Shown: positions 1-33,039 of the stretch, in pieces
How the letters are laid out: every line of letters starts with the position of its first letter
Numbering within the stretch: position 1 is the first letter of the stretch
From: a virus
Virus record (IMG/VR): IMGVR_UViG_3300028920_000168
Coordinates: 1 to 36,139 of that record
Direction: 5' to 3' (one strand)
DNA: 36,139 nucleotides
The notes under the pieces: model-generated
What the model saw: only the letters and a program-made list of their open reading frames with translations
What the model was told of the DNA's origin: nothing
Databases searched by the model: none
Translations under genes and position numbers: made by a program

Positions 1-1692
1 TATTCCAAATGTGATCGTCTTAGCGGCACGCCTATAGAACTTCAGCTCTTCACCGCTCAGATCTTCAACTGACTCATCTGTGAATCCGAACATCTTTTTC
101 ATGTTATTATAGTGAATGTCACCTTCCACGCATGCTTTCCTCAACCCTGCATCACCAGAGAGATGAGCTAGCATACGAACTTCAGCTTGACTATAGTCGG
201 CCGCGATTATGGTGTATCCTTTCCTCGCTTCAAAAATATTTTTAATAACCTTATCCTTAGGGATTCCGTGGATATTCGGATTTCCTGAGGATAGCCTAGC
301 TGTACGGGTACCTATCATCTTGAAGTCTGGAGATATGAATTCATCATTCCATAACCTCTTGATTATTCCATCGTGATAAGCTCCCATCCTCTTAGCAACT
401 AATCTTCGGTTAGCCAGAGTTGCAGGAAATTCATGTTGAATCCCGAGCCAGTACAGCATGAATAGCGATGTGCTATCCGACTCCATATTACTGGTCGTTT
501 GAGTCGAAGTTGACTTCCAGCAGTTTATGGCATCGTGTGAAGCTTCAGGCATAACCTCATCAATCTTTCGCTGGATCAATTTTTGCGACATCTTTCCGTT
601 CTTATTGCTCATCTTGACTAGCTTCAAATCCTTGTATAGTATCTTCTTCACTTGGGGTACTGAATTAAAATTGACTCCTTCATCGCAATATTTCTTCAGG
701 ATTTCATCGCATTCATTAATTTTTCCTTCCCAGATTTCCTTAACATGAGCAAGGCCATCCTTTGATACTTTCAAACCCTTTATCCACATATCGATAAAAA
801 GTTTAGCTCCAGAAAGCATTATGTCATCATGGATCTTCATCTCAGTCAGAGTCAGTATCTTTTTGAGACGGTTGAATACCCGAAACGTAGCATCACAATC
901 TGCCGCATTATATAGTAAGACCTTCTCCTTATCTGACTCCCAGGCTTCCTTCATTTTCTTCACATCTATTCCATAGTCACCTAGATCAACGTATGCAAGA
1001 TGCTTAAGTCCATGAACTCCCTTCCGTTCATCCCTAATGTAACTCATAAACATAGTATCATACCTGTAATTAAGATTTATTCCATGGAGTGACAGCCATG
1101 GAACATCATACTGACCGTGGTGGAATATGCATTCTTTATTTCGAAAGAACTCATTCAACATCCCGATGAATTCAGGATGGTTGATAAATGGAAATGCTCC
1201 TCCATTACCTGGAGCATCCGATATCCCTATGGATATCAACTCATCATTACGGGCATTAAGGCCAATGGTCTCGATATCAACAGATATCAGCTTCGACTTA
1301 TGGTACATATTCAATACAGCTTCTATATCCCCTACTATATAGTCTTCATATGGAGGTACCGGAACTCTCCATTCACCTTTCATATATAAAGCGATTAATC
1401 CAAGTTGATCCGCCAGTGACCTAAATACATCCACATTATTATATACTTCGCGTATATGATTGATTATGAATACATTAGGTTCGAAGAACCTTCCGAGTAC
1501 ATCAGCAATTTTCCTTCGCTTCTTATATGGAGCCATATCATCCTTTTCAGATACAGCATTGACTACATCATCATCATGTATTATTTCTCTGCTGAACATG
1601 ATTTGATTTTCCTTTACCCCGAATGGTTTTAGCATCTGTCTAATAACGCTCTTCTGACGTATGGCATATACTCCGACAAAGTTTATCTTCAT
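1..1692 (-). CDS. polA: Family A DNA polymerase with 3'-5' exonuclease (C-terminus cut by window edge)
   Basis: This is the replicative DNA polymerase, of the Pol I family. I translated 564 residues before the window ends. Residues 139-141 (DIE), 191-196 (HHGQYD) and 261-265 (YNAAD) fit the three DEDDy exonuclease motifs. Residues 461-479 carry a TxTARLSS-like motif 1, 499-512 are motif A (DYSQAEVRMLAHLS), and 554-564 begin motif B (RRAAKTITFGI). Motif C lies outside the window. There is no 5'-3' exonuclease domain. About 130 N-terminal residues before the exonuclease are unassigned. The ATG shares one base with the stop of the upstream synthetase gene (TAATG), so the two are translationally coupled. 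A PolA-type polymerase next to a PurA/PurZ-family gene matches the DpoZ-PurZ neighbourhood known from 2-aminoadenine phages, but nothing in the visible motifs proves that specificity. Confidence 0.93.
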   Translation of the reverse strand, partial: MKINFVGVYAIRQKSVIRQMLKPFGVKENQIMFSREIIHDDDVVNAVSEKDDMAPYKKRRKIADVLGRFFEPNVFIINHIREVYNNVDVFRSLADQLGLIALYMKGEWRVPVPPYEDYIVGDIEAVLNMYHKSKLISVDIETIGLNARNDELISIGISDAPGNGGAFPFINHPEFIGMLNEFFRNKECIFHHGQYDVPWLSLHGINLNYRYDTMFMSYIRDERKGVHGLKHLAYVDLGDYGIDVKKMKEAWESDKEKVLLYNAADCDATFRVFNRLKKILTLTEMKIHDDIMLSGAKLFIDMWIKGLKVSKDGLAHVKEIWEGKINECDEILKKYCDEGVNFNSVPQVKKILYKDLKLVKMSNKNGKMSQKLIQRKIDEVMPEASHDAINCWKSTSTQTTSNMESDSTSLFMLYWLGIQHEFPATLANRRLVAKRMGAYHDGIIKRLWNDEFISPDFKMIGTRTARLSSGNPNIHGIPKDKVIKNIFEARKGYTIIAADYSQAEVRMLAHLSGDAGLRKACVEGDIHYNNMKKMFGFTDESVEDLSGEELKFYRRAAKTITFGI

Positions 1693-2807
1693 TATCGGAG
1701 TTTCCTTGCATCAAACTTGTTACTATTTCCGCATCCATGTCCAAACAATTTTACTTTAGTGCCATACGGTATAGAGGATTCAATGAAACTTAGGAACTGC
1801 CAGAACTTATTATCCTTATACTGATCCTCAGTTTCTAAATGAGGTATCCCATTTTCCACCATATCAAGATAATCAAAGTATTCACTCGAACTCCAAGGTT
1901 TGAAGAACATCAGACTTCCACTTTTATCATATACTCCAATGTTCATTTCTATATCGCACAGCACATCAATTTTAGAAAGTGCTAGGTAAGACGGTCGCTC
2001 AATCATGATAGCCCTGCACAGGTTTCGAAGGTTTAGCCATCCTATCCTTCTTTTCCTTCCGCTCACAGATCCTATCTCATTTCCTTTTTCTCTGATATAA
2101 TTCGCTGACTCAAACCCCATTCCATCAAAATCTCCTGGGCCAACCTTAGTAACATATGGTTTTATGCACATGATTCTTTCATCTACCAGAGAGGGACTGA
2201 ACCCTGCTTGAGACCCGATTGAACTAAATCCACAGTTTGAAGTGGTAACTATAGGATATTCCCCCTGGTGGATGTCAAGTCCAAATCCATGAGCTCCTAT
2301 GAATAATATATTTTTGTCAAGCGAATTGTTTAAATAATCCGCAGTATCTATGGTTGATATTCCATTGACGCTAATTGACCCCATCATCTCAGATTTCCTC
2401 ATCATCCTATCGACATTGCATGGGCCTACTCCAGTCCCTACAGAACCAAATTTTGAAATGTTTTTTTCACTATCCTCAACCATATGTTTAGATAATATTA
2501 CAGGAGCAGTCTTACTGACTAAAACTTCAAAGTTAGGATTTTTTTGTTTAAGCTCCCTTATTTCTTTCATAAGCACATCGAGGTTAATGCACATTCCTTC
2601 AGTCAAAACCAATGTAGATCCTGCTTTTAAACCTCCTGATGGCAATAATCTGAATACAATTTTTTCATTATTGTCAGTTGTTACAGTATTTCCAGCATTA
2701 CTACCCCCGTTGAACCTGACGAATATATCGTACTCGTCTTTTATGAAATTAACAATTTCAGCCTTACACTCATCTCCATATTGTCCTCCAATGATTACTG
2801 TTTTCAT
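1692..2807 (-). CDS. Adenylosuccinate synthetase family enzyme (PurA/PurZ-like)
   Basis: Members join L-aspartate to a purine nucleotide using GTP: PurA acts on IMP, and phage PurZ acts on dGMP on the way to 2-aminoadenine. At 371 residues it is shorter than bacterial PurA (about 430), as phage and archaeal forms are. The P-loop is GDECKAE (11-17) rather than GDEGKGK. The catalytic Asp is present (D12), whereas published PurZ enzymes typically lack it. The residue matching E. coli His41 is Asn40 (NAGNT), and the one matching Gln224 is His173 (GAHG). The aspartate loop GRKRR (250-254) and the GTP-specificity motif KID (279-281) are kept. An unusual FGHGCGN lies near the C-terminus. The ATG at 2807 has GGAGG 5 bases upstream, which is better than the ATG at 2819. 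It overlaps the HNH gene by 4 bases. Family membership is secure; the substrate is not. Confidence 0.88.
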   Translation of the reverse strand: MKTVIIGGQYGDECKAEIVNFIKDEYDIFVRFNGGSNAGNTVTTDNNEKIVFRLLPSGGLKAGSTLVLTEGMCINLDVLMKEIRELKQKNPNFEVLVSKTAPVILSKHMVEDSEKNISKFGSVGTGVGPCNVDRMMRKSEMMGSISVNGISTIDTADYLNNSLDKNILFIGAHGFGLDIHQGEYPIVTTSNCGFSSIGSQAGFSPSLVDERIMCIKPYVTKVGPGDFDGMGFESANYIREKGNEIGSVSGRKRRIGWLNLRNLCRAIMIERPSYLALSKIDVLCDIEMNIGVYDKSGSLMFFKPWSSSEYFDYLDMVENGIPHLETEDQYKDNKFWQFLSFIESSIPYGTKVKLFGHGCGNSNKFDARKLR

Positions 2808-3241
2808 ATGAACCTCCATCTCCTTCCGGTATTAATGTTACTTATTGTCTTGCTGGATACTCCATAAAAGCTTGCTAATATACTTTGGTTGCATCCAGTC
2901 CTGAGACTGGATTTGATAGCCTTGATTTCCTCAAGTGATAACTTGATATTCCCATGCCTTTTCTTGACTGCCATATCAACCATATTGTCTGATTGATTCC
3001 CGGATATCAAGTGGTTGAAGTTTATGCATTTTCTGTTATCGCACTTATGAAGAACGACCTCCGGAGTTACGCCGCACATTAGGAACATATACCTTGGAAG
3101 ACTTATTTTCTTCCTATTGATAGTGATGTAGCAATATCCAGTTGAGCTTGGTTTATGCGAAGTGCATTCATGGCAGTATGGATCTATTCCTAAACGCTCG
3201 TTCCTCTCATAATATACTTCCTTATATGAAATTTTCCTCAT
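2804..3241 (-). CDS. HNH endonuclease, homing-type
   Basis: This is probably a free-standing homing endonuclease that cuts DNA at an allelic site lacking the gene. The central region has the HNH core, with His and Cys around LHKCDNRKCINFNHL and then a conserved NxxDN segment. The basic C-terminal part looks like the small helical DNA-binding (NUMOD-like) tail seen in these enzymes, with a helix-turn-helix-like stretch ending in NINTGRRWRF. The ATG at 3241 is preferred over 3292 because AAAGGA stands 7-8 bases before it, while the longer form would start inside a stem-loop. The gene sits between dpdA and the PurA/PurZ-like gene and overlaps the latter by 4 bases, as expected for an element inserted into a compact operon. 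It has no obvious metabolic link to its neighbours. Confidence 0.85.
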   Translation of the reverse strand: MRKISYKEVYYERNERLGIDPYCHECTSHKPSSTGYCYITINRKKISLPRYMFLMCGVTPEVVLHKCDNRKCINFNHLISGNQSDNMVDMAVKKRHGNIKLSLEEIKAIKSSLRTGCNQSILASFYGVSSKTISNINTGRRWRFI

Positions 3242-3261
3242 ATCAAATCCTTTCAGAGTCC

Positions 3262-3293
3262 AATGCAACCCTGCCCGAGGACAGGATTGCATT
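3262..3293 (-). promoter_or_regulatory. Stem-loop in the leader of the HNH gene
   Basis: A 12-base-pair stem (AATGCAATCCTG against CAGGGTTGCATT, one G-U pair) with an 8-base loop lies between the dpdA stop and the HNH start. No U-tract follows on the minus strand, so it is not a classic terminator. It may lower translation or stabilise processed RNA, as hairpins before phage homing endonuclease genes often do. Confidence 0.5.
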
Positions 3294-3309: not shown

Positions 3310-4035
3310 TTATATTTTATATAGTTTTGCTATATTTTCAGATAGCAATTTGCTTCCTGCCTTATATGCAAACATGAACGTTCTACTTCTGCAAGGTACG
3401 TCCGAATCAATTCTTTTCTTATTTTGAGCATATAATGCCGCATAGCATGTGTCCAGTGACCTTATTGAGTTATCCAAATCCTTTAGATCTCTCAGTTCAT
3501 CCAGCGAATTAAGACCAAGCACATGGATTTCTTTTTGTATTCCTTCGCTGAATAGCAGATGTGAAATGAATGTCCTCCTATTCACTTCTTTTTGAATCAT
3601 GAACTTACTGATTCCCAATGTATGGATACATCCTTGATCTGCTAGTATCTTAGCGCATTCGACGTATTCACTTCCATCATATCCTTGAGGAACAGCCATC
3701 AGTTTTCCCTTATACTTCCAGCACTTAGTTTTCAAGAATGATGTGAAATCCTTCATCTTCGATATAGTGGAATTCTTATCATATAAACTATCCGGAATCA
3801 CTACTTCAGATGGATTGATATAGCTCATGACTTCATGAAGTTCCTCGAATGTCAGCTGATTCCCTTCGGCTTCACCATTGTCAAGTACCACATATGAAGT
3901 TTCAGCAACTTTTCTATAAAACTGAGCGTATGATTCGTTGTTACGAGCGACGTGAGCTAAACACATGTGGATAGAACTATCCTTGGTTTCATTAAGATTC
4001 CCAACTGGCACTATATTAGCTATTTTCAAATTCAT
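3310..4035 (-). CDS. dpdA: DpdA-like DNA 7-deazaguanine transglycosylase
   Basis: Phage DpdA proteins are relatives of tRNA-guanine transglycosylase that exchange guanine in DNA for a 7-deazaguanine. The 241-residue protein has the expected order of motifs: LDNGEAEG at 51-58, VVIPDS at 78-83 (family D-rich substrate loop), MAVPQG at 113-118, LGI at 140-142, HVLGL at 171-175, and IRSLDT at 191-196. The last Asp lies where the TGT nucleophile would be. It lacks the long zinc-binding C-terminus of bacterial TGT, as the small phage forms do. The start is uncertain: ATG at 4059 overlaps nrdD more, and I chose 4035, which has GGAG 3 bases upstream. Its operon mates folE, queD and queE supply deazaguanine precursors, which strengthens the call considerably. 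Confidence 0.82.
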   Translation of the reverse strand: MNLKIANIVPVGNLNETKDSSIHMCLAHVARNNESYAQFYRKVAETSYVVLDNGEAEGNQLTFEELHEVMSYINPSEVVIPDSLYDKNSTISKMKDFTSFLKTKCWKYKGKLMAVPQGYDGSEYVECAKILADQGCIHTLGISKFMIQKEVNRRTFISHLLFSEGIQKEIHVLGLNSLDELRDLKDLDNSIRSLDTCYAALYAQNKKRIDSDVPCRSRTFMFAYKAGSKLLSENIAKLYKI

Positions 4036-5773
4036 CAACTCCATTCCATTTTCTATCATAGAACTCTACTTGTCTTTCTTGACTCCAGCTACTGACTGGG
4101 ACAAAGTATCCTATTATACGGCTCCAAATTTCTTTAATAGGTTTTCCACATTGGCAAACCCTAACGTTCCCTAATGGGAGTATATGATCATCTTCACACT
4201 GTGTAAATCCATAGTTTACAGCTAAATGAGGGAGTCCATATTTTATAGCTAACAAAATGATTTGCTTCATACCAGCTGGATTAAGCTTTGGAACATTAAT
4301 ATGGCATATCCCTCCACCAGAGAGGGCATTGACTAACCCTGCGGATATCTTGATCCTTTGCTCTATCGGCATATCGACGTGAAGCGGAACAAATTGATTG
4401 CTGTATATGCTATACTTCTGAACTTCCTTGCCGAAGAACTCCCTATCTGACTTAGCCATCTTCACACATGCTCCCTCTCCAGGGACTTCTTCGACGTTGA
4501 AGATCAAGTCAGATTCATGCTTATCAATCTCCTCCTTTATAGTCTTAATTATCACTTCCATCATGTTATAGGATAATCCAAGGATTTCAACTGCTTCATA
4601 AATCCCAACTATCCCTATGGTTGCAAATAGATTCATGAGCTTAATAATTCCTAATGGCTTGATAAACTTATTATATCCGTTATTAGCGGCATCCTCTAAG
4701 ATTTTTCTGTGAGCCTCATGCAATTTGATGATATCACCGACGTCATCCTTTAGGATTTCCAGGAATGTCGTTGGATTCCCTCTACTCAGGTATGCAAGGT
4801 GAGGAAGGTTGATCGCAATAACTCTGGACGAACCTACATCGATACCTCCGTTTCCGAAGCTGTCAATCCTATCGAGATCATTCACGAATCTACAGCACAT
4901 GGATACCTTATTATCATCTGAGTTAGCCAGGTATATATTAAAATTCCCTAGCCTTGAGTTAGTGTCCGAAACGTAATCCAGGAATTCATCGTCAGACTTG
5001 TTTATGTTGAATGTGCTGACTGGGAATCGATAAGGTATTCCGGATTCAGTACATCTCATCAATTCAGCGTACAATTCCTGAACTCTGAGCATCACGTATA
5101 AATCGAATTCGTAGTCCTTGAAAATATTTCGTGCGATGTCCCTCGAAAACATTGAGAAATTTGTAAACGGGGATTGGCCAGCAGTCCTGTTTTCATTGTT
5201 GAACGCCAGTACTATCCTCATTAGGTCTTCCATAATTTCTGAATCACTTACTTCACGTCCAGCTTTCTCAATGAACTGAGCGTATAGTACAAAGAAGTCA
5301 GATGGAGCTATAGCTCCCATGCAATAATTGGCCAATGATGACATCGCCTCTATCACGACAGTTGTAAATTCTCTGTGATTCTTAGGAACTATCCTGACTC
5401 CATTCGACTCATATCCTTCTTCAGCTAACTTTCTCAGACTTATGGCTACGCAATATATACTTCGAATATCAGACAAATCATGAATATACGTCCTGTTATT
5501 TATAACATTTCTCATTATCTGATCCCTATCAGGTGAATCGAGATACCTGTATATAGTGAATAGACTTTCCGTCTTATATTGTTTATCCGATGTCATCCAC
5601 TTCTTCTTCACTGGGGATATAAAATTCGCATTAGCATTTGGATCCGATTTGTCTTCATTATCCTTCATAAATTTGATATTATCATTTATAAATTCTTTAG
5701 TCGGGATACAGAAATTCTCTCCATTATCTTTAGTATTCCGAATTATTTCTACAAATTTATTATATTCAATCAT
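4016..5773 (-). CDS. nrdD: Anaerobic (class III) ribonucleoside-triphosphate reductase
   Basis: This enzyme reduces ribonucleoside triphosphates to deoxy forms using a glycyl radical, so it works only without oxygen. At 585 residues it is shorter than E. coli NrdD (712) and has no recognisable N-terminal ATP-cone. The central SMCCRFVNDL followed by a glycine-rich loop and INLPHLAYL fits the active-site region. Near the C-terminus a Cys pair (CQCG) precedes RIIGYF, which matches the glycyl-radical RxxGY motif, followed by SSW and an E-x-x-x-R-like tail. AGGAG precedes the ATG by 7 bases. The upstream gene encodes its activase and stops 2 bases before this start. It supplies dNTPs for phage replication and marks the host as anaerobic or facultative. 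Confidence 0.95.
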   Translation of the reverse strand: MIEYNKFVEIIRNTKDNGENFCIPTKEFINDNIKFMKDNEDKSDPNANANFISPVKKKWMTSDKQYKTESLFTIYRYLDSPDRDQIMRNVINNRTYIHDLSDIRSIYCVAISLRKLAEEGYESNGVRIVPKNHREFTTVVIEAMSSLANYCMGAIAPSDFFVLYAQFIEKAGREVSDSEIMEDLMRIVLAFNNENRTAGQSPFTNFSMFSRDIARNIFKDYEFDLYVMLRVQELYAELMRCTESGIPYRFPVSTFNINKSDDEFLDYVSDTNSRLGNFNIYLANSDDNKVSMCCRFVNDLDRIDSFGNGGIDVGSSRVIAINLPHLAYLSRGNPTTFLEILKDDVGDIIKLHEAHRKILEDAANNGYNKFIKPLGIIKLMNLFATIGIVGIYEAVEILGLSYNMMEVIIKTIKEEIDKHESDLIFNVEEVPGEGACVKMAKSDREFFGKEVQKYSIYSNQFVPLHVDMPIEQRIKISAGLVNALSGGGICHINVPKLNPAGMKQIILLAIKYGLPHLAVNYGFTQCEDDHILPLGNVRVCQCGKPIKEIWSRIIGYFVPVSSWSQERQVEFYDRKWNGVDEFENS

Positions 5774-5774
5774 G

Positions 5775-6527
5775 TCAGAACTCCTTTACTCTAAAATACG
5801 TGGTGAATTGGTCAGGTAATTCCAGTAGATCTATAGTATGGTACACGTGTTGATCCGAACCATACTGTCCTACCTTTATCACGTGGCACAGTTTCTTTAT
5901 GCGGTTAGGGACGTCGAATAATTTGTTCCCTGTATATAATATATTATATACGCCGATGTCATAGAAAAACTTCATGAGTGAAAATAGGGCATCCTCCTGG
6001 AGTGTTGGTTCCCCTCCCTGGTAAGTGACCGCCTTATAGTCGAATAAGCTCGTAATGATGTCCTTGACTATATCCTTAGCTGTTTTCGTCACTCCTTTAG
6101 TTATATCAAATAATCCAGGGTTATGACATCCTTTGCATCTGATATTACATCCTTGGAAAAAAATGATAGGAGATACATATCCGAAGCTGTCTTGAGTAAC
6201 TATCTCAGATATATAATTTTTTGGAACTTCCAGTTTTATGTTTGATAAATCATTATAATTCATTCTTAGTCTGCATATATCAGCTATAATATATGCATAA
6301 TTGGCGACATCAGCACATTCCTTTATTATCTCAGTCTCACGAAAAAGGTTTATTTCATATCCAAGTTCAGCTACTTCCTCTATCATTTTCACATACATCT
6401 CATTTATCGGGGTATTGATAGACCATCCGTTTCTCTTATGTCTTTTTTCCTCAAATTTTTTAATCATCGCGAACCTGAAGTGATCTAGGTTCCGCTTTAT
6501 CTTTTCCATATCCGAAATTATTTCCAA
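5775..6527 (-). CDS. nrdG: MazG-like domain fused to NrdG radical-SAM activase
   Basis: There are two domains. Residues about 1-95 carry a MazG/dUTPase-like helical pattern with EEVAE at 50-54 and E70-x-x-D73 in ECADVANY, the metal-binding layout of all-alpha NTP pyrophosphatases. Residues about 105-250 form a radical-SAM domain with C127-x3-C131-x2-C134 and GGEPTLQ at 171-177, as in NrdG, which makes the glycyl radical on NrdD. NrdG proteins are usually about 150-190 residues, so the N-terminal part is an addition. The start is TTG at 6527, with AGGAGG 8 bases upstream; the in-frame ATG 18 bases later has no site. The MazG-like part could trim a nucleotide pool (dGTP to dGMP, as MazZ does in 2-aminoadenine phages) or clean up abnormal dNTPs. 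That role is inference. Confidence 0.88.
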   Translation of the reverse strand: MEIISDMEKIKRNLDHFRFAMIKKFEEKRHKRNGWSINTPINEMYVKMIEEVAELGYEINLFRETEIIKECADVANYAYIIADICRLRMNYNDLSNIKLEVPKNYISEIVTQDSFGYVSPIIFFQGCNIRCKGCHNPGLFDITKGVTKTAKDIVKDIITSLFDYKAVTYQGGEPTLQEDALFSLMKFFYDIGVYNILYTGNKLFDVPNRIKKLCHVIKVGQYGSDQHVYHTIDLLELPDQFTTYFRVKEF

Positions 6528-6529
6528 AA

Positions 6530-6877
6530 CTAACGCCTCCTAACTTCAGAGCTAAACTTATCATCCTCGCACACTTCGACGCTGTATATATTATATCCAT
6601 CATCTCTCATCATATTGTATATCCACTCAGCCATATGTTCGCATGAATCTGTTGAACAATTTTCCTTGAATTGATCCCAATAACTTTTTATAAAGGATTC
6701 ACATACATCTTTAAACATGATGTATTCGATTTCCCTATTGGAATGCTCAACCTCAACTTGTATAATATATGTGAAATTATGATAATGAGGGAGTTTCAGG
6801 TATTTAACTTCAAACGGAGCATTTGGATAATGATGAGCCCCTAAGTATGAAGATTTCACTTTTACTAATTTTCTCAT
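6530..6877 (-). CDS. Divergent QueD/6-pyruvoyl-tetrahydropterin-synthase-fold protein
   Basis: I see a degenerate copy of the QueD fold in this 115-residue protein. Alignment by eye with the QueD encoded at 8157-8534 gives GAHH (13-16) over the first zinc His, HYHNFTY (31-37) over HGHSYRC, YIMFKDV (52-58) over VINFSDL, and CEHMAEWI (79-86) over AENIAAWI. VEVCED (100-105) lies over VKLWET, so the HxH zinc ligands and the late Glu (E104) are kept. The catalytic Cys before HxH and the LDH catalytic pair are missing. It is probably a different enzyme or a binding protein acting on a pterin-like or deazapurine intermediate. It overlaps folE by 4 bases (ATGA) and lies 2 bases before nrdG, so it belongs to the operon. 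Specific function unknown. Confidence 0.62.
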   Translation of the reverse strand: MRKLVKVKSSYLGAHHYPNAPFEVKYLKLPHYHNFTYIIQVEVEHSNREIEYIMFKDVCESFIKSYWDQFKENCSTDSCEHMAEWIYNMMRDDGYNIYSVEVCEDDKFSSEVRRR

Positions 6878-7422
6878 ATCTCACCGATTAGCTTTAGGAA
6901 TTCATGCTTTGTAGAGGTTTGAGTGAAACATCCACGATATATAGACGTTATTGTATCAGCTTCCATCTTTTGAACTCCCCTCATTCCCATACATAGATGT
7001 CTAGCTTTTAATATAACACCGACACCAGTAGCATTCACATACGTTTCAATATCATCTACTATCTGTTTTTGCATTCTTTCCTGAATCTGGAGTCGTCTAG
7101 CATAACACTCAACTAATCTTGCCAGTTTACTTAATCCAACTATTTTTTTACTCGGAATATATCCTATGTGAGCTACTCCTATAAAAGGAAGTATATGATG
7201 TTCGCACACACTTGCAAATCCGATATTTCTAACAACAATCATATTATTACTTTCGGCTTCGAATTGCCTAGACAATATCTCTTCAGGATTTTCCTTATAT
7301 CCTTTGAATAAAAATTCATATGCCCGTTCAACTCTCTCGGGAGTTCTTTGCAATCCTTCTCTTGATACTCCTCCTTTCTCAATTTGATTTAAAATGCTTA
7401 TAATTTCATTTTTGCAGTTCAT
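6874..7422 (-). CDS. folE: GTP cyclohydrolase I
   Basis: FolE converts GTP to 7,8-dihydroneopterin triphosphate, the first step of both folate and 7-deazaguanine synthesis. The 182-residue length is typical of the single-domain core. Residues 73-76 (CEHH) and C144 in RHLCMGMRG supply the zinc ligands, and the block HIGYIPSKKIVGLSKLARL is the family signature. AGGAGG precedes the ATG by 7 bases. With queE and queD just upstream in the operon and dpdA downstream, the likely purpose is 7-deazaguanine for DNA rather than folate. Confidence 0.96.
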   Translation of the reverse strand: MNCKNEIISILNQIEKGGVSREGLQRTPERVERAYEFLFKGYKENPEEILSRQFEAESNNMIVVRNIGFASVCEHHILPFIGVAHIGYIPSKKIVGLSKLARLVECYARRLQIQERMQKQIVDDIETYVNATGVGVILKARHLCMGMRGVQKMEADTITSIYRGCFTQTSTKHEFLKLIGEI

Positions 7423-7440: not shown

Positions 7441-8106
7441 TTATTTTGCATCTAAAATTTTGTGCAATTGGCAGGACAGTCTCAGAGTCCCAGGTATACT
7501 TTTCCGTTGCTCGAGAAATTTTTCAACTATCAGATCCGGCCTATGGATCTTTCCATCCTGCTCAGTCCTGCATTGCAAATAGATCTCTGAGTTGCTGAAC
7601 AACGATTCCCATACTGATGCCCATGACTTGAGAAATACAAAGCTTTCATCTTCCCTCCCGATTACAACTTTTAATGTAACCCTCGATCCATCAATTTTCC
7701 TGAGTATCTCGATATACTTCTTCATATCATACTCAATGTGATTCTTAGGTGAAAATGTGATATGATCAATCATATAAATCCACGGAGCATCAAGCGAATG
7801 TGTTTCAACATGAACTCTAAATTCTCTAGTTTGCAAAATTCGAATTAATTTGGTGCAATCCTGAAGAGTAGGATCACCGCCAGTTATTACCACTATCGGT
7901 ATATTAGAATCAGAATCCCATGGATCCAATTTATTCACAATTTCATCAATTTTCATAGTTTCGCCAGACTTCATATCCCATGAAGCTTTAGTATCACAGA
8001 ACTTGCATCTGGCATTACATCCAGCAAGCCTTATGAATTGAGCAGGATACCCGGAAAACCTGCCCTCTCCTTGAATTGTGTTAGTAATTATTTCAGATAC
8101 TTCCAT
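7441..8106 (-). CDS. queE: 7-carboxy-7-deazaguanine synthase
   Basis: QueE is a radical-SAM enzyme that contracts 6-carboxytetrahydropterin to 7-carboxy-7-deazaguanine (CDG). The 221-residue protein begins with the QueE hallmark QGEG (12-15). It then has C30-x3-C34-x2-C37 for the iron-sulfur cluster, and ITGGDPTLQ around 75-83. Both the spacing C-x3-C-x2-C and the GGDP loop fit QueE; NrdG in this operon has GGEP instead. GGAGGG lies 5 bases before the ATG. A hairpin separates it from queD. Confidence 0.95.
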   Translation of the reverse strand: MEVSEIITNTIQGEGRFSGYPAQFIRLAGCNARCKFCDTKASWDMKSGETMKIDEIVNKLDPWDSDSNIPIVVITGGDPTLQDCTKLIRILQTREFRVHVETHSLDAPWIYMIDHITFSPKNHIEYDMKKYIEILRKIDGSRVTLKVVIGREDESFVFLKSWASVWESLFSNSEIYLQCRTEQDGKIHRPDLIVEKFLEQRKSIPGTLRLSCQLHKILDAK

Positions 8107-8156: not shown

Positions 8157-8534
8157 TTACCTGAATTCAATATATACATGAGAATTAGCAGTTTCCCATA
8201 ATTTTACACTAATAACATGCAATGATTTATTATAATTAATTTTTCTTAGTTCATCAGATGCCTTCTCAGCTATCCATGCAGCTATATTTTCAGCAGTCGG
8301 TAATTCATTAAGCACATTATTCAAGTCCTCATGATCCAGCATATCTTCTATCCCTCTGCATATACTACTGAGGTCAGAAAAATTTATAACTATTCCATCT
8401 TTAGTCATATTCCCAGATACAGCTATTTGACATCTATATGAATGTCCATGATTCCTAGCACATTTCCCCATACCAGGAAGATTATGAGCCGCCTCAAATG
8501 AGAATTCTTTAATAGTACTTATTCTCAATGTCAT
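8157..8534 (-). CDS. queD: 6-carboxy-5,6,7,8-tetrahydropterin synthase
   Basis: QueD turns dihydroneopterin triphosphate into 6-carboxytetrahydropterin, the QueE substrate. The 125-residue protein has the zinc ligands H17 (EAAHNL), H29 and H31 (NHGHSY), the catalytic C25, the D67-H68 pair in MLDHEDLN, and E114 in WETANSH, so all the key residues are present. ATG at 8534 overlaps the upstream stop (ATGA), but its GGGGAGG is only one base away. TTG at 8528 (MRISTIKEF) has that site at 7 bases and may be the true start. Confidence 0.95.
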   Translation of the reverse strand: MTLRISTIKEFSFEAAHNLPGMGKCARNHGHSYRCQIAVSGNMTKDGIVINFSDLSSICRGIEDMLDHEDLNNVLNELPTAENIAAWIAEKASDELRKINYNKSLHVISVKLWETANSHVYIEFR

Positions 8535-9076: not shown

Positions 9077-10426
9077 TTATATATAACATTGAGCCGCTTT
9101 CATTCCAGAAATGGCACATGATATAAAGCTATCCAAGAACCCAGTTGAATGACCGACCAAATGGATATTGCACTTGTTCGCATTATTCAACCCGAAAGTA
9201 TCTTCCTCTACTTGATATTTATTAGCATAATACTTCATCTCAGGGAAGTATATCAGAGGATCTCCACTTGATACATCAACTATCTTGCCTAGTTCTCTAA
9301 TGAAAGCTCTAAACCCATTGCTAATTGAATAATCCATCTGACCAAGGTCTATCCCCGATACAGATTGAGAATGATAAGTTGAAGTAAATTCGTATGTAGG
9401 TCTGAAATTCATGAAATCTGATACTTTTTGAACTCTAGATGATAAAAACCTAACATTAGTCGTATTACATAATTTCGCCAAGTGCCTCACATACTCTTGA
9501 GGTCTACCTGTTACAATTCCAACAGGGATTTTGCATTGGATTGAGAAGTTCGACCTATTTGATTTCATATTTTCATTAAGGTATGAATGTCCATTAACAT
9601 TAATTATTTCATAATCCTTATGATGTTCATTTGTTATATACCCTTGCTGATTGCAACAGAAGCTTCGGAACTCAAACCCGTTATGCTTGTAAGTTAGTTT
9701 GAAGTCATAGAACTTATCGAATAGCGGCTTCAGAACATTTGCATCTGCTTCGAACCTTATTCCAAAGCAGGCTTCCCCAGGTACACGTGATATGTTCAGC
9801 TTCTTAGATTGCGAAGCTAACCATTTGGATCCAGCTAATCCAGTGCCTATGAATATGACATCTGGTTGATGAATCAGAAAACCATGAGCATAAGTGTTGC
9901 TCTGACTAGTCACCTTCCCATCCAATTCCACATCTAACACGTCTGTATTATATAAAAACTTGATTCCTCTTTCCTTCAGAACTTTTGAAAAGTTTCCTAC
10001 GAAATCCTGAATCCCATCGCTTCCATAGTGCCTGAGTTGATACTCTTCCAGTGTAAACTTAGTGCCGAGGTACTTCTCGTATGCCTTTTCATCAAAGCCT
10101 TTTGTTATTCCCCCAAAGCTATGAGTTTCCATGAGGTCGTCTATCCGGTTAAAAAATTCTTCATCATCCTGTTTGAATATGGATTTGGATGTGTTAGTCC
10201 CCCTCTTCAGGGAATAAGTATTCTTCCCATCCGAGAAACCACCGGCTCCACCTTCACCGCATAGGATGTCGCATGTACCGCAATTGCATAATCCAGATTT
10301 AGAGCATTTCCTATCCTCAATCTTACTCCCAGACTCAATCACCAATATATCATTATCCTTATTCTTTGATAACTCATATGCGGCGAATAGATTTGCTGGG
10401 CCTGCTCCAATCAAAAGTATTTTCAT
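9077..10426 (-). CDS. FAD-dependent dehydrogenase (COG2509-like)
   Basis: The N-terminus has a dinucleotide-binding fold (GAGPAN at 7-12, acidic E31 at the end of the second strand) for FAD. A Cys-rich segment follows (C41, C47, C49, C52, C56) and then GEGGAGGFSDGK at 57-68, which is characteristic of the uncharacterised FAD-dependent dehydrogenases of COG2509. Near the C-terminus there is a second nucleotide-contact region around LVGHSTGFLDSF. The 449-residue length is typical of that family. These enzymes are common in anaerobes but have no established role in phages. It lies between the SSB-like gene and the ATPase in the same operon as the deazaguanine genes, so a part in base or cofactor chemistry is possible. 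No substrate can be read from the sequence. Confidence 0.8.
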   Translation of the reverse strand: MKILLIGAGPANLFAAYELSKNKDNDILVIESGSKIEDRKCSKSGLCNCGTCDILCGEGGAGGFSDGKNTYSLKRGTNTSKSIFKQDDEEFFNRIDDLMETHSFGGITKGFDEKAYEKYLGTKFTLEEYQLRHYGSDGIQDFVGNFSKVLKERGIKFLYNTDVLDVELDGKVTSQSNTYAHGFLIHQPDVIFIGTGLAGSKWLASQSKKLNISRVPGEACFGIRFEADANVLKPLFDKFYDFKLTYKHNGFEFRSFCCNQQGYITNEHHKDYEIINVNGHSYLNENMKSNRSNFSIQCKIPVGIVTGRPQEYVRHLAKLCNTTNVRFLSSRVQKVSDFMNFRPTYEFTSTYHSQSVSGIDLGQMDYSISNGFRAFIRELGKIVDVSSGDPLIYFPEMKYYANKYQVEEDTFGLNNANKCNIHLVGHSTGFLDSFISCAISGMKAAQCYI

Positions 10427-31128: not shown

Positions 31129-33039
31129 TTAAGGTATTTTCGCAAGTATGAAACTGAGTACTAGCTCCGTCTGAACCAAAGTATAACTCATTCCAACGTC
31201 GGCCTCAACTTTTGTATATGATTGAGTTTCATCATGCTGAATTAAAGTATAACTCCTGTCAGCATCGCACTCGACTTTTGTATAAGATTCCGTTTCAGAT
31301 TTTATGTCGTCTGCTAAGACTTTATCGTAGCTCTGAGTTTCATCATGTTGAATTAGTGTAAAGCTTCTATCTGCATCACATTCAACTTTAGTATAACTCT
31401 CAGTTTCTGATTTTATGTCGTCTGCTAACACCTTATCATAGCTTTGAGTCTCATCATGTTGAATCAGAGTAAAGCTTCGGTCTGCATCTGCTTCTACTTT
31501 AGTATAGGATTCAGTCTCAGATTTTATACTATCTGCTAATACTTTATCATAGCTCTGAGTTTCATCATGCTGGATTAGTGTAAAACTCCTATCAGCATCT
31601 GTTTCTACTTTAGTATATGATTGAGTTTCATCATGCTGAATTAATGCGTAGCTTCTGTCAGCATCTGACTCTACTTTCATATATGACTCCGTCTCAGATT
31701 TTATGTCATCCGCTAAGACTTTGTCATAACTTTGTGTCTCATCATGCTGTATTAATGTAAAACTTCTATCTGCATCTGATTCTACTTTAGTATATGATTC
31801 TGTTTCAGATTTTATATTATCTGCTAATACTTTGTCATAGCTTTGAGTTTCATCATGCTGTATCAAAGTAAAACTTCTGTCAGCATCTGATTCTACCTTA
31901 GTATATGACATCTCAGCATCTGCTTCTACTTTAGTATATGATTCTGTTTCAGATTTTATATTGTCTGCCAGCACCTTATCGTAACTTTGTGTCTCATCAT
32001 GCTGAATCAATGTGAAACTCCTATCAGCATCGGATTCAACCTTAGCATAACTCATTTCTGCATCAGCTTCAACTTTATTATATGACATTGCAACATCAAC
32101 TTCAACCTTAGTATATGACCTAGTTGCATCTGCTTCAACTTTAGTATAAGAATCTATTATATTAAATATACCAGAGGAATCATCTGCCGCTATTGCCGCA
32201 TCCTGACCTCCTGAACACGATGCGCAGGCTTCCCCATCAAATCCTTCCCATTTCCAGGTTGAACTTCCCGCAGTATCGACTACTATCAGAGTGAAATCTG
32301 AAGTTCCTTCGATATATGAATATCCTTTGATTTTAACATTAGTACATGCAGTTGTATGGAATTCAACTAATCCTGTGGTTAACACGCCATAGAAGTCGAT
32401 TTCTATATCAGCAGTATCAACTCCAACCAACCTCACAGCATTTTCGACTGCATTACCCCCAGTAAATCCTATATATTTTAGCTTCAATTTTAATCTATCT
32501 GCCGCGGCAGTTGCTAATACTGCTCTAGCGGCTTCAACGGAGGATGATCCATCTCTCCACTCAACTTTTATATCAAGGTCAGCTGCTTGGAAATGCAGAG
32601 GATTTGTAAGTCCATCAATACCAGCTATGCATATGAAGTTATGGAAAACTATGCTAGCTCCTGAGAATACTATACTAGCACCTGTATCAGTTGAGAAGGT
32701 TAATTTTGCCCTATCATCTCCTTCACCTACAGCTATCCACTGTACTCCTGCTGTACTAAGAGTCAACGCTCCGGCACTAGCTAATGTTTCAGCATGACCT
32801 ACAGCCACATAAACTCTATCACCATTATTTGCAGTAACTTGGCTATCAGCGTAATCCATAGTTTTGAATGCCTTGGCCCATGTTGATCCATCATTGCTGT
32901 CAGAACCGTTCGTATAGTCAACATAGTAACAGTTTCCTGCTACAGGAGCCGCTATGTCAGCTCCTTTTAATCTTAATATTCCGTTAACATTCCATGCCGC
33001 TCCGCCTTGCTCTGCATAATTCAGAGTATTTGCTCCCAT
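31129..33039 (-). CDS. Head fibre-like protein with 11/15-residue tandem repeats
   Basis: In this 636-residue protein, residues about 1-295 form a beta-helix-like head, starting near YYVDYTNGSDSNDGSTWAKA and running through many short strand repeats. Residues about 297-617 contain about 27 units: 21 of 11 residues (SYTKVEADADR, SFTLIQHDETQ types) and six of 15 (SYDKVLADNIKSETE). The repeats vary mainly at one or two sites. The SYTKVE core resembles the YTKxEVD motif of phage fibre coiled coils. It is encoded right after the capsid gene, so a head fibre or decoration is likely. The many Ser/Thr/Tyr residues make it a possible substrate for the neighbouring glycosyltransferases (inference). Confidence 0.75.
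   Translation of the reverse strand: MGANTLNYAEQGGAAWNVNGILRLKGADIAAPVAGNCYYVDYTNGSDSNDGSTWAKAFKTMDYADSQVTANNGDRVYVAVGHAETLASAGALTLSTAGVQWIAVGEGDDRAKLTFSTDTGASIVFSGASIVFHNFICIAGIDGLTNPLHFQAADLDIKVEWRDGSSSVEAARAVLATAAADRLKLKLKYIGFTGGNAVENAVRLVGVDTADIEIDFYGVLTTGLVEFHTTACTNVKIKGYSYIEGTSDFTLIVVDTAGSSTWKWEGFDGEACASCSGGQDAAIAADDSSGIFNIIDSYTKVEADATRSYTKVEVDVAMSYNKVEADAEMSYAKVESDADRSFTLIQHDETQSYDKVLADNIKSETESYTKVEADAEMSYTKVESDADRSFTLIQHDETQSYDKVLADNIKSETESYTKVESDADRSFTLIQHDETQSYDKVLADDIKSETESYMKVESDADRSYALIQHDETQSYTKVETDADRSFTLIQHDETQSYDKVLADSIKSETESYTKVEADADRSFTLIQHDETQSYDKVLADDIKSETESYTKVECDADRSFTLIQHDETQSYDKVLADDIKSETESYTKVECDADRSYTLIQHDETQSYTKVEADVGMSYTLVQTELVLSFILAKIP
31180..32151 (-). repeat. 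Coding tandem repeat array of the fibre gene
   Basis: The DNA is a tandem array of 33- and 45-base units, in register with the 11- and 15-residue protein repeats. It is prone to unequal recombination, so copy number may vary between isolates. Confidence 0.9.

Follow-up and report, generated by a model that had tools for sequence, protein, structure and literature searches.

A divergent PurA relative in a QueC-less viral operon with a predicted role in 7-deazapurine DNA modification

The 36,139-base linear IMG/VR virus record IMGVR_UViG_3300028920_000168 was analysed over its whole length (the window). It is a fragment encoding capsid, protease, tail and replication genes, and its minus strand carries an intact frame for a PurA-like protein, here termed PurA*, in an operon transcribed in the order QueD, QueE, FolE, QueD2, MazG::NrdG, NrdD, DpdA, HNH, PurA*, PolA (Table 1). 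QueC (PF06508) found no match in the window record or in eight related records, and the same search detected QueC in QueC-type records. A previous inspection of the letters alone (the sequence-only reading) had singled out the active site of PurA*; the QueC-less 7-deazaguanine operon around it fell outside that finding. An in-frame ATG upstream, at position 2819, is a possible earlier start giving 375 amino acids, and it is overlapped by the homing-type HNH gene.

PurA* matched PF00709 with 226.6 bits (cut-off 27, E 6e-67). Its AlphaFold2 model (predicted local distance difference test, pLDDT, 85.3; predicted template modelling score, pTM, 0.88) aligned to the E. coli and Plasmodium PurA structures with Z 44 and a root-mean-square deviation of 2.0-2.2 over 344-349 residues, while Z was 34 against PurZ0 and 31 against PurZ; the fold is thus closer to PurA. 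The protein falls below the PurA equivalogs TIGR00184 (223.5 bits, cut-off 395.55) and NF002223 (213 bits, cut-off 402), and it misses the cut-off of the PurZ model NF038379 by a wide margin (106.5 bits against 300). By curated score and by residues it is not a normal PurA, and the sequence-only description of it as neither a classical PurA nor a classical PurZ was borne out.

For the residue census, viral PurA-like genes were aligned with 80 cellular sequences, E. coli PurA and four PurZ-type proteins, and window residues were mapped onto E. coli PurA numbers via the alignment. The cellular control set, ordinary PurA, was the sole product of the genome-contig scan. The census comprised 202 sequences: 81 cellular, 107 other viral, 4 PurZ-type and 10 dpdA-linked, including the window protein. 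PurA* of the window retains Asp13 (D12), Lys16, Asn38, Arg143, Thr239, Arg303, Arg305, Lys331 and Asp333, and is altered by G15C, G17A, K18E, H41N (N40), T129V, E221I, Q224H (H173) and T301S. Its sequence includes the stretches GGQYGDECKAEIV, GGSNAGNTV, IGAHGFGLDIHQGEYPIVTTSNC, GSVSGRKRRIGW and SKIDVL. All residues named by the sequence-only reading (the P-loop GDECKAE, N40, H173, the kept catalytic Asp, GRKRR and KID) were found in the protein; T129V, E221I and T301S are further changes absent from its list. A sequencing artefact behind GDECKAE was judged unlikely, since several codons differ and not one frameshift is involved.

These changes form two layers. The replacement of Gln224 by His is group-wide, occurring in 9 of the 10 dpdA-linked proteins vs none of the remaining 192 sequences of the census (Fisher p 8e-15, with shared descent uncorrected). 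The changes at Gly15, Lys18, His41 and Thr129 are private to the window: N40, C14, E17, V124 (the Thr129 position) and I170 occur in its PurA* alone among the 202 aligned sequences. His41 is present in 201 of them, the window protein being the sole exception, Thr129 in 200, and Gly15 in 199, where the exceptions are two Ala in PurZ0 and the window Cys. The substitutions are not common in ordinary PurA. The idea that N40 and H173 might mark one clade did not hold, H173 being common to the dpdA-linked group and N40 and the P-loop changes private. All ten dpdA-linked proteins carry R143, T239, N38, R303 and R305, as well as Asp13, and most PurA* relatives retain GDEGKGK or GDEGKGR and His41. The L025 protein (5986-7191) keeps Gln224, and its otherwise invariant TTGRPRR aspartate loop is changed to GVHIHRPRR.

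In solved PurA structures R143, T239, N38, R303 and R305 bind the phosphate and ribose of inosine monophosphate (IMP) and/or aspartate (PMC11571797, PMC8342488). The equivalents of Thr129, Thr239, Asn38 and Arg143 in H. pylori PurA lie within hydrogen-bonding distance of IMP, and the backbone of the Gly15/Lys16/Gly17 equivalents holds the GTP beta-phosphate position (PMC11571797). In solved PurZ structures the equivalents of Gln224, Asn38 and Thr129 form part of the wall of the base pocket, and the His41 equivalent touches the triphosphate (PMC8342488). On these equivalences, read from alignments, most of the private changes map to the side of the phosphoryl donor and the shared one to the base. 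Because of H41N, G15C, K18E and T129V, the canonical GTP-dependent step appears unlikely in the window copy, which probably cannot run the canonical PurA reaction; an altered mechanism and a dead copy are both possible. In the older mutagenesis literature the H41N mutant of the E. coli enzyme is reported to be inactive. The interpretation of the sequence-only reading is supported in part; the changed purine specificity or loss of the normal step that it proposed may follow from these residues.

A search for PurA* relatives revealed eight further distinct IMG/VR viruses with the same gene order around PurA* (loci L013-15, L021, L023, L025, L051, L071, L095 and L097), namely QueD-QueE-FolE-[QueD2::DUF4406/NDT-like::MazG]-NrdJ-DpdA-PurA*-[UDG4::PolA]. 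In L014 and L025 a gene of its own encodes the MazG domain, and QueD, QueE and FolE were not recognised in the L025 flank. A scan for DpdA, independent of the PurA search, yielded 27 loci, and PolA follows DpdA in most of them; an alignment of DpdA proteins in which those of the window and phi13:1 were included was too diverse to serve as scan query. Whole-record searches with the PF00709 (PurA) and PF06508 (QueC) profiles covered 27 DpdA records, of which 25 are from IMG/VR, including the window, and the others are phi13:1 and Youna2. They placed PurA* in 9 of the 27 records, QueC in 9 others and both in none (Fisher p 0.012). QueD2 was present in 13 records, comprising all nine with PurA* and four more, namely L259, L261, L271 and phi13:1, with zero overlap with the nine QueC records (p 0.0006); both p values assume independent viruses, and the records are fragments. 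The DpdA loci thus include two mutually exclusive arms, a PurA* type and a QueC type.

Table 1. Operon genes of the window and the evidence for their assignment
Feature	Position	Strand	Remarks
QueD, 6-carboxytetrahydropterin synthase	8157..8534	minus	catalytic residues present
QueE, 7-carboxy-7-deazaguanine synthase	7441..8106	minus	CX3CX2C present
FolE, GTP cyclohydrolase I	6874..7422	minus	–
QueD2, QueD paralogue (phrog_17812)	6530..6877	minus	retains the zinc His triad, lacks the catalytic Cys and Asp-His
MazG-like N-terminal part fused to NrdG-type radical-SAM activase	5775..6527	minus	MazG part by comparison with L014/L023
NrdD, anaerobic ribonucleotide reductase	4016..5773	minus	NrdJ fills this slot in related operons
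DpdA-like DNA-guanine transglycosylase	3310..4059	minus	likely start 4041; both invariant family Asp kept
HNH endonuclease with HTH	2804..3292	minus	wedged between dpdA and purA*
PurA* (PurA-like protein)	1692..2807	minus	371 amino acids, PF00709; AlphaFold2 model and PDB match
PolA, family A DNA polymerase	1..1692	minus	contig end cuts inside motif B

The DpdA family of the window is homologous to genes of phage 7-deazaguanine clusters, and the best PDB match of its profile was the DNA-guanine transglycosylase 7ui4, a weak one (E 0.0057). QueD2 may be the decarboxylase of 7-carboxy-7-deazaguanine (CDG) that was reportedly named DpdL in 2023. In the QueD2 fusion found in the relatives, the middle domain had no PDB match, did not match the two Ghobes gene products tried and gave a weak DUF4406 match in one relative; a DmtZ-like deoxyribosyltransferase, considered for this domain, was confirmed by none of these comparisons. 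MazG::NrdG followed by NrdD stands where related operons have NrdJ, as its anaerobic counterpart, and suggests an anaerobic host. A family 4 uracil-DNA glycosylase domain (UDG4) is fused to the N-terminus of PolA downstream of PurA* in L021, L071, L051, L095, L097, L023, L025 and L014; it was not recognised in the window PolA. PADLOC returned nothing relevant for PurA* and DpdA. Single-protein scans of viral contigs found no close relatives of the window PurA* and DpdA, so the window virus stands alone, and an NrdD scan of viral contigs gave one distant locus lacking the operon. Outside the operon, the window encodes a FAD-dependent HI0933-like oxidoreductase (9077-10426) near DUF669, a partial homologue of which also lies near DUF669 in L253, and a structural protein of 636 amino acids (31129-33039) in which near-identical repeats of the form SYTKVEADADRSFTLIQHDETQSYDKVLADDIKSETE follow one another over a long stretch.

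Phage 7-deazaguanine DNA modification, as reported by Hutinet in 2019, relies on FolE-QueD-QueE-QueC-DpdA. The window shares FolE, QueD and QueE with this system, also encodes a DpdA-like protein, and differs in lacking QueC and in carrying QueD2 and PurA*. The cluster of Cellulophaga phages phi13:1/phiST likewise has QueD, QueE, FolE, MazG, QueD2 and DpdA and no QueC, but a PurA homologue is present nowhere in the phi13:1 genome. The gene content therefore points to a branch of phage 7-deazaguanine DNA modification that lacks QueC and has a PurA relative, a type that is apparently unreported. With PurA (PF00709, TIGR00184) the window protein shares the fold, the catalytic Asp, the phosphate and aspartate loops and the guanine motif KID, while it lacks His41, Gln224 and Thr129, has the GDECKAE P-loop, is ~60 amino acids shorter and lies in a dpdA operon. 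Like PurZ/PurZ0 of phiVC8, S-2L and Ghobes, it is a phage PurA homologue adjoining replication genes, with a use, predicted in the case of PurA*, in DNA base modification. PurA* differs in keeping Asp13 and Arg303, in the polymerase of its relatives, which is not DpoZ-like, and in an operon that makes CDG, not dZTP.

By the established pathway FolE, QueD and QueE produce the free base CDG, which QueC converts to preQ0 via 7-amido-7-deazaguanine (PMC13329287). We predict, at a probability of about 0.5, that PurA* is dedicated to a phage operon for 7-deazapurine DNA modification that lacks QueC, in which it would supply a tailoring step alternative to that of QueC. Its substrate is most likely a 7-deazapurine nucleotide, not IMP or deoxyguanosine monophosphate (dGMP), judging from the phosphate and aspartate residues conserved throughout the group and the pocket change of Gln224 to His. 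Conserved phosphate-binding residues imply that the substrate is a 5'-nucleotide, which would call for a source of 7-deazapurine nucleotide; the candidate is the DUF4406/NDT-like domain of the relatives, a family assignment as yet unconfirmed, by analogy with DmtZ, the enzyme that transfers deoxyribose 5-phosphate to the Z base (PMC12884076). In PurA-like chemistry an oxygen would be activated by phosphoryl transfer and attacked by aspartate, and host PurB would then remove fumarate. Adenylosuccinate lyase is not encoded in the PurA* records, as in those PurZ systems that rely on host PurB. Attack at O6 would lead to a 7-deaza-2-aminoadenine nucleotide, and attack at the 7-carboxylate, following the logic of SAICAR synthetase, to a succinyl amide and, after PurB, to 7-amido-7-deazaguanine. 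Both products are chemically sensible, and we choose neither. A His at 224 facing the carboxylate would be a natural fit for the second route, and carboxyls on phage bases are known as handles for amide ligases, such as CmoY acting on 5-carboxymethylcytosine (PMC12783734). The window copy may rely on another phosphoryl donor or an altered mechanism, or may have lost catalysis. The fuller proposal, put forward here only tentatively, is that a third phage PurA-family enzyme tailors 7-deazapurines, either yielding a 7-deaza-2-aminoadenine nucleotide, which would give phage DNA with a base at once Z-like and 7-deaza, or replacing QueC by joining aspartate to the CDG carboxyl, from which host PurB would leave the amide, and that the window enzyme does so without the canonical His41 and P-loop.

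Several points weigh against a dedicated role of PurA* in 7-deazapurine modification. A gene that would make a 7-deazapurine nucleotide is not established: the window lacks the DUF4406/NDT-like domain, which in the relatives is unconfirmed by sequence. The absence of QueC from the PurA* arm is not final, as the records are fragmentary. Asp13, the N1 contact that is Ser in phage PurZ, is kept, which gives no clear reason to expect a purine with a 2-amino group in the usual place. Finally, the placement of the window protein in the dpdA-linked group is of moderate strength. In the tree, a branch supported at 87/57 sets it and the dpdA-linked PurA-like proteins apart from the other sequences; its own end branch is very long (2.6). 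With motif columns masked and cellular sequences added, the grouping had a higher likelihood than the free quick search and was unrejected (approximately unbiased test, 0.79), and the shared gene order strengthens it.

The long end branch, together with the loss of invariant or near-invariant residues through H41N, G15C, K18E and T129V, could also mean that the window copy is catalytically dead or decaying, whatever its relatives do. This is a real possibility, though we lean away from it, and it is compatible with the preferred role for the group as a whole. Against it, the frame and the operon are intact, the other operon enzymes keep their catalytic motifs, and the aspartate loop and GTP-base motif are kept. 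Identities of the window proteins to the group and within the group were 34 and 40.5 for PurA*, 27 and 42.5 for DpdA, 30 and 42 for QueE, and 35 and 50 for PolA; relative to the group spread, PurA* has diverged no more than DpdA, QueE, QueD2 and PolA, which argues against simple decay despite the lost invariant residues. We regard as unlikely an ordinary auxiliary metabolic PurA boosting adenine nucleotides from IMP, with dpdA adjacency reflecting the replication neighbourhood and Gln224 to His reflecting drift. Such a PurA would account for the P-loop and His41 of most relatives, for Asp13 and Arg303 in all of them and for the ribonucleotide reductase within the same operon, and many IMG/VR viruses encode an ordinary PurA. 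But the Gln224 change is confined to dpdA-linked proteins, the QueC-type DpdA records all lack PurA*, and the window copy is altered at otherwise invariant catalytic positions. Among the phage-collection PurA matches H7-H9, some records look bacterial, e.g., 500-kb Salmonella records.

That PurA* is of the PurZ type and converts dGMP to 2-aminoadenine (Z), in a phage with a Z genome and additional 7-deazaguanine genes, is largely excluded and by far the least probable alternative. As in Z phages, the PurA homologue lies near PolA and a MazG-like domain, and the PurZ and DpoZ models gave weak matches. Yet Ser replaces Asp13 in 147/147 phage PurZ (PMC12884076), and the retained Asp13 and an Arg303 that is not Lys speak against a PurZ-like dGMP substrate, as do the low PurZ score and the fold against the PurZ assignment. 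The helix-O Tyr, which is Phe in both DpoZ clades (PMC8599892), is kept in the polymerases of eight relatives; the window PolA ends just before this residue.

No literature linking a PurA-family enzyme to the 7-deazaguanine route was found in open papers, the key 2023 paper on new 7-deazaguanines lying outside this coverage. Formation of 2-aminoadenine via PurZ and of 7-deazaguanine via QueC/DpdA have hitherto been treated as separate phage routes. In at least nine viruses the operon couples the 7-deazaguanine pathway with a PurA-family enzyme, in exchange for QueC. It predicts a DNA base or intermediate so far undescribed and supplies a compact gene set open to testing. If this is true, the PurA scaffold would have been recruited a second time for DNA modification.
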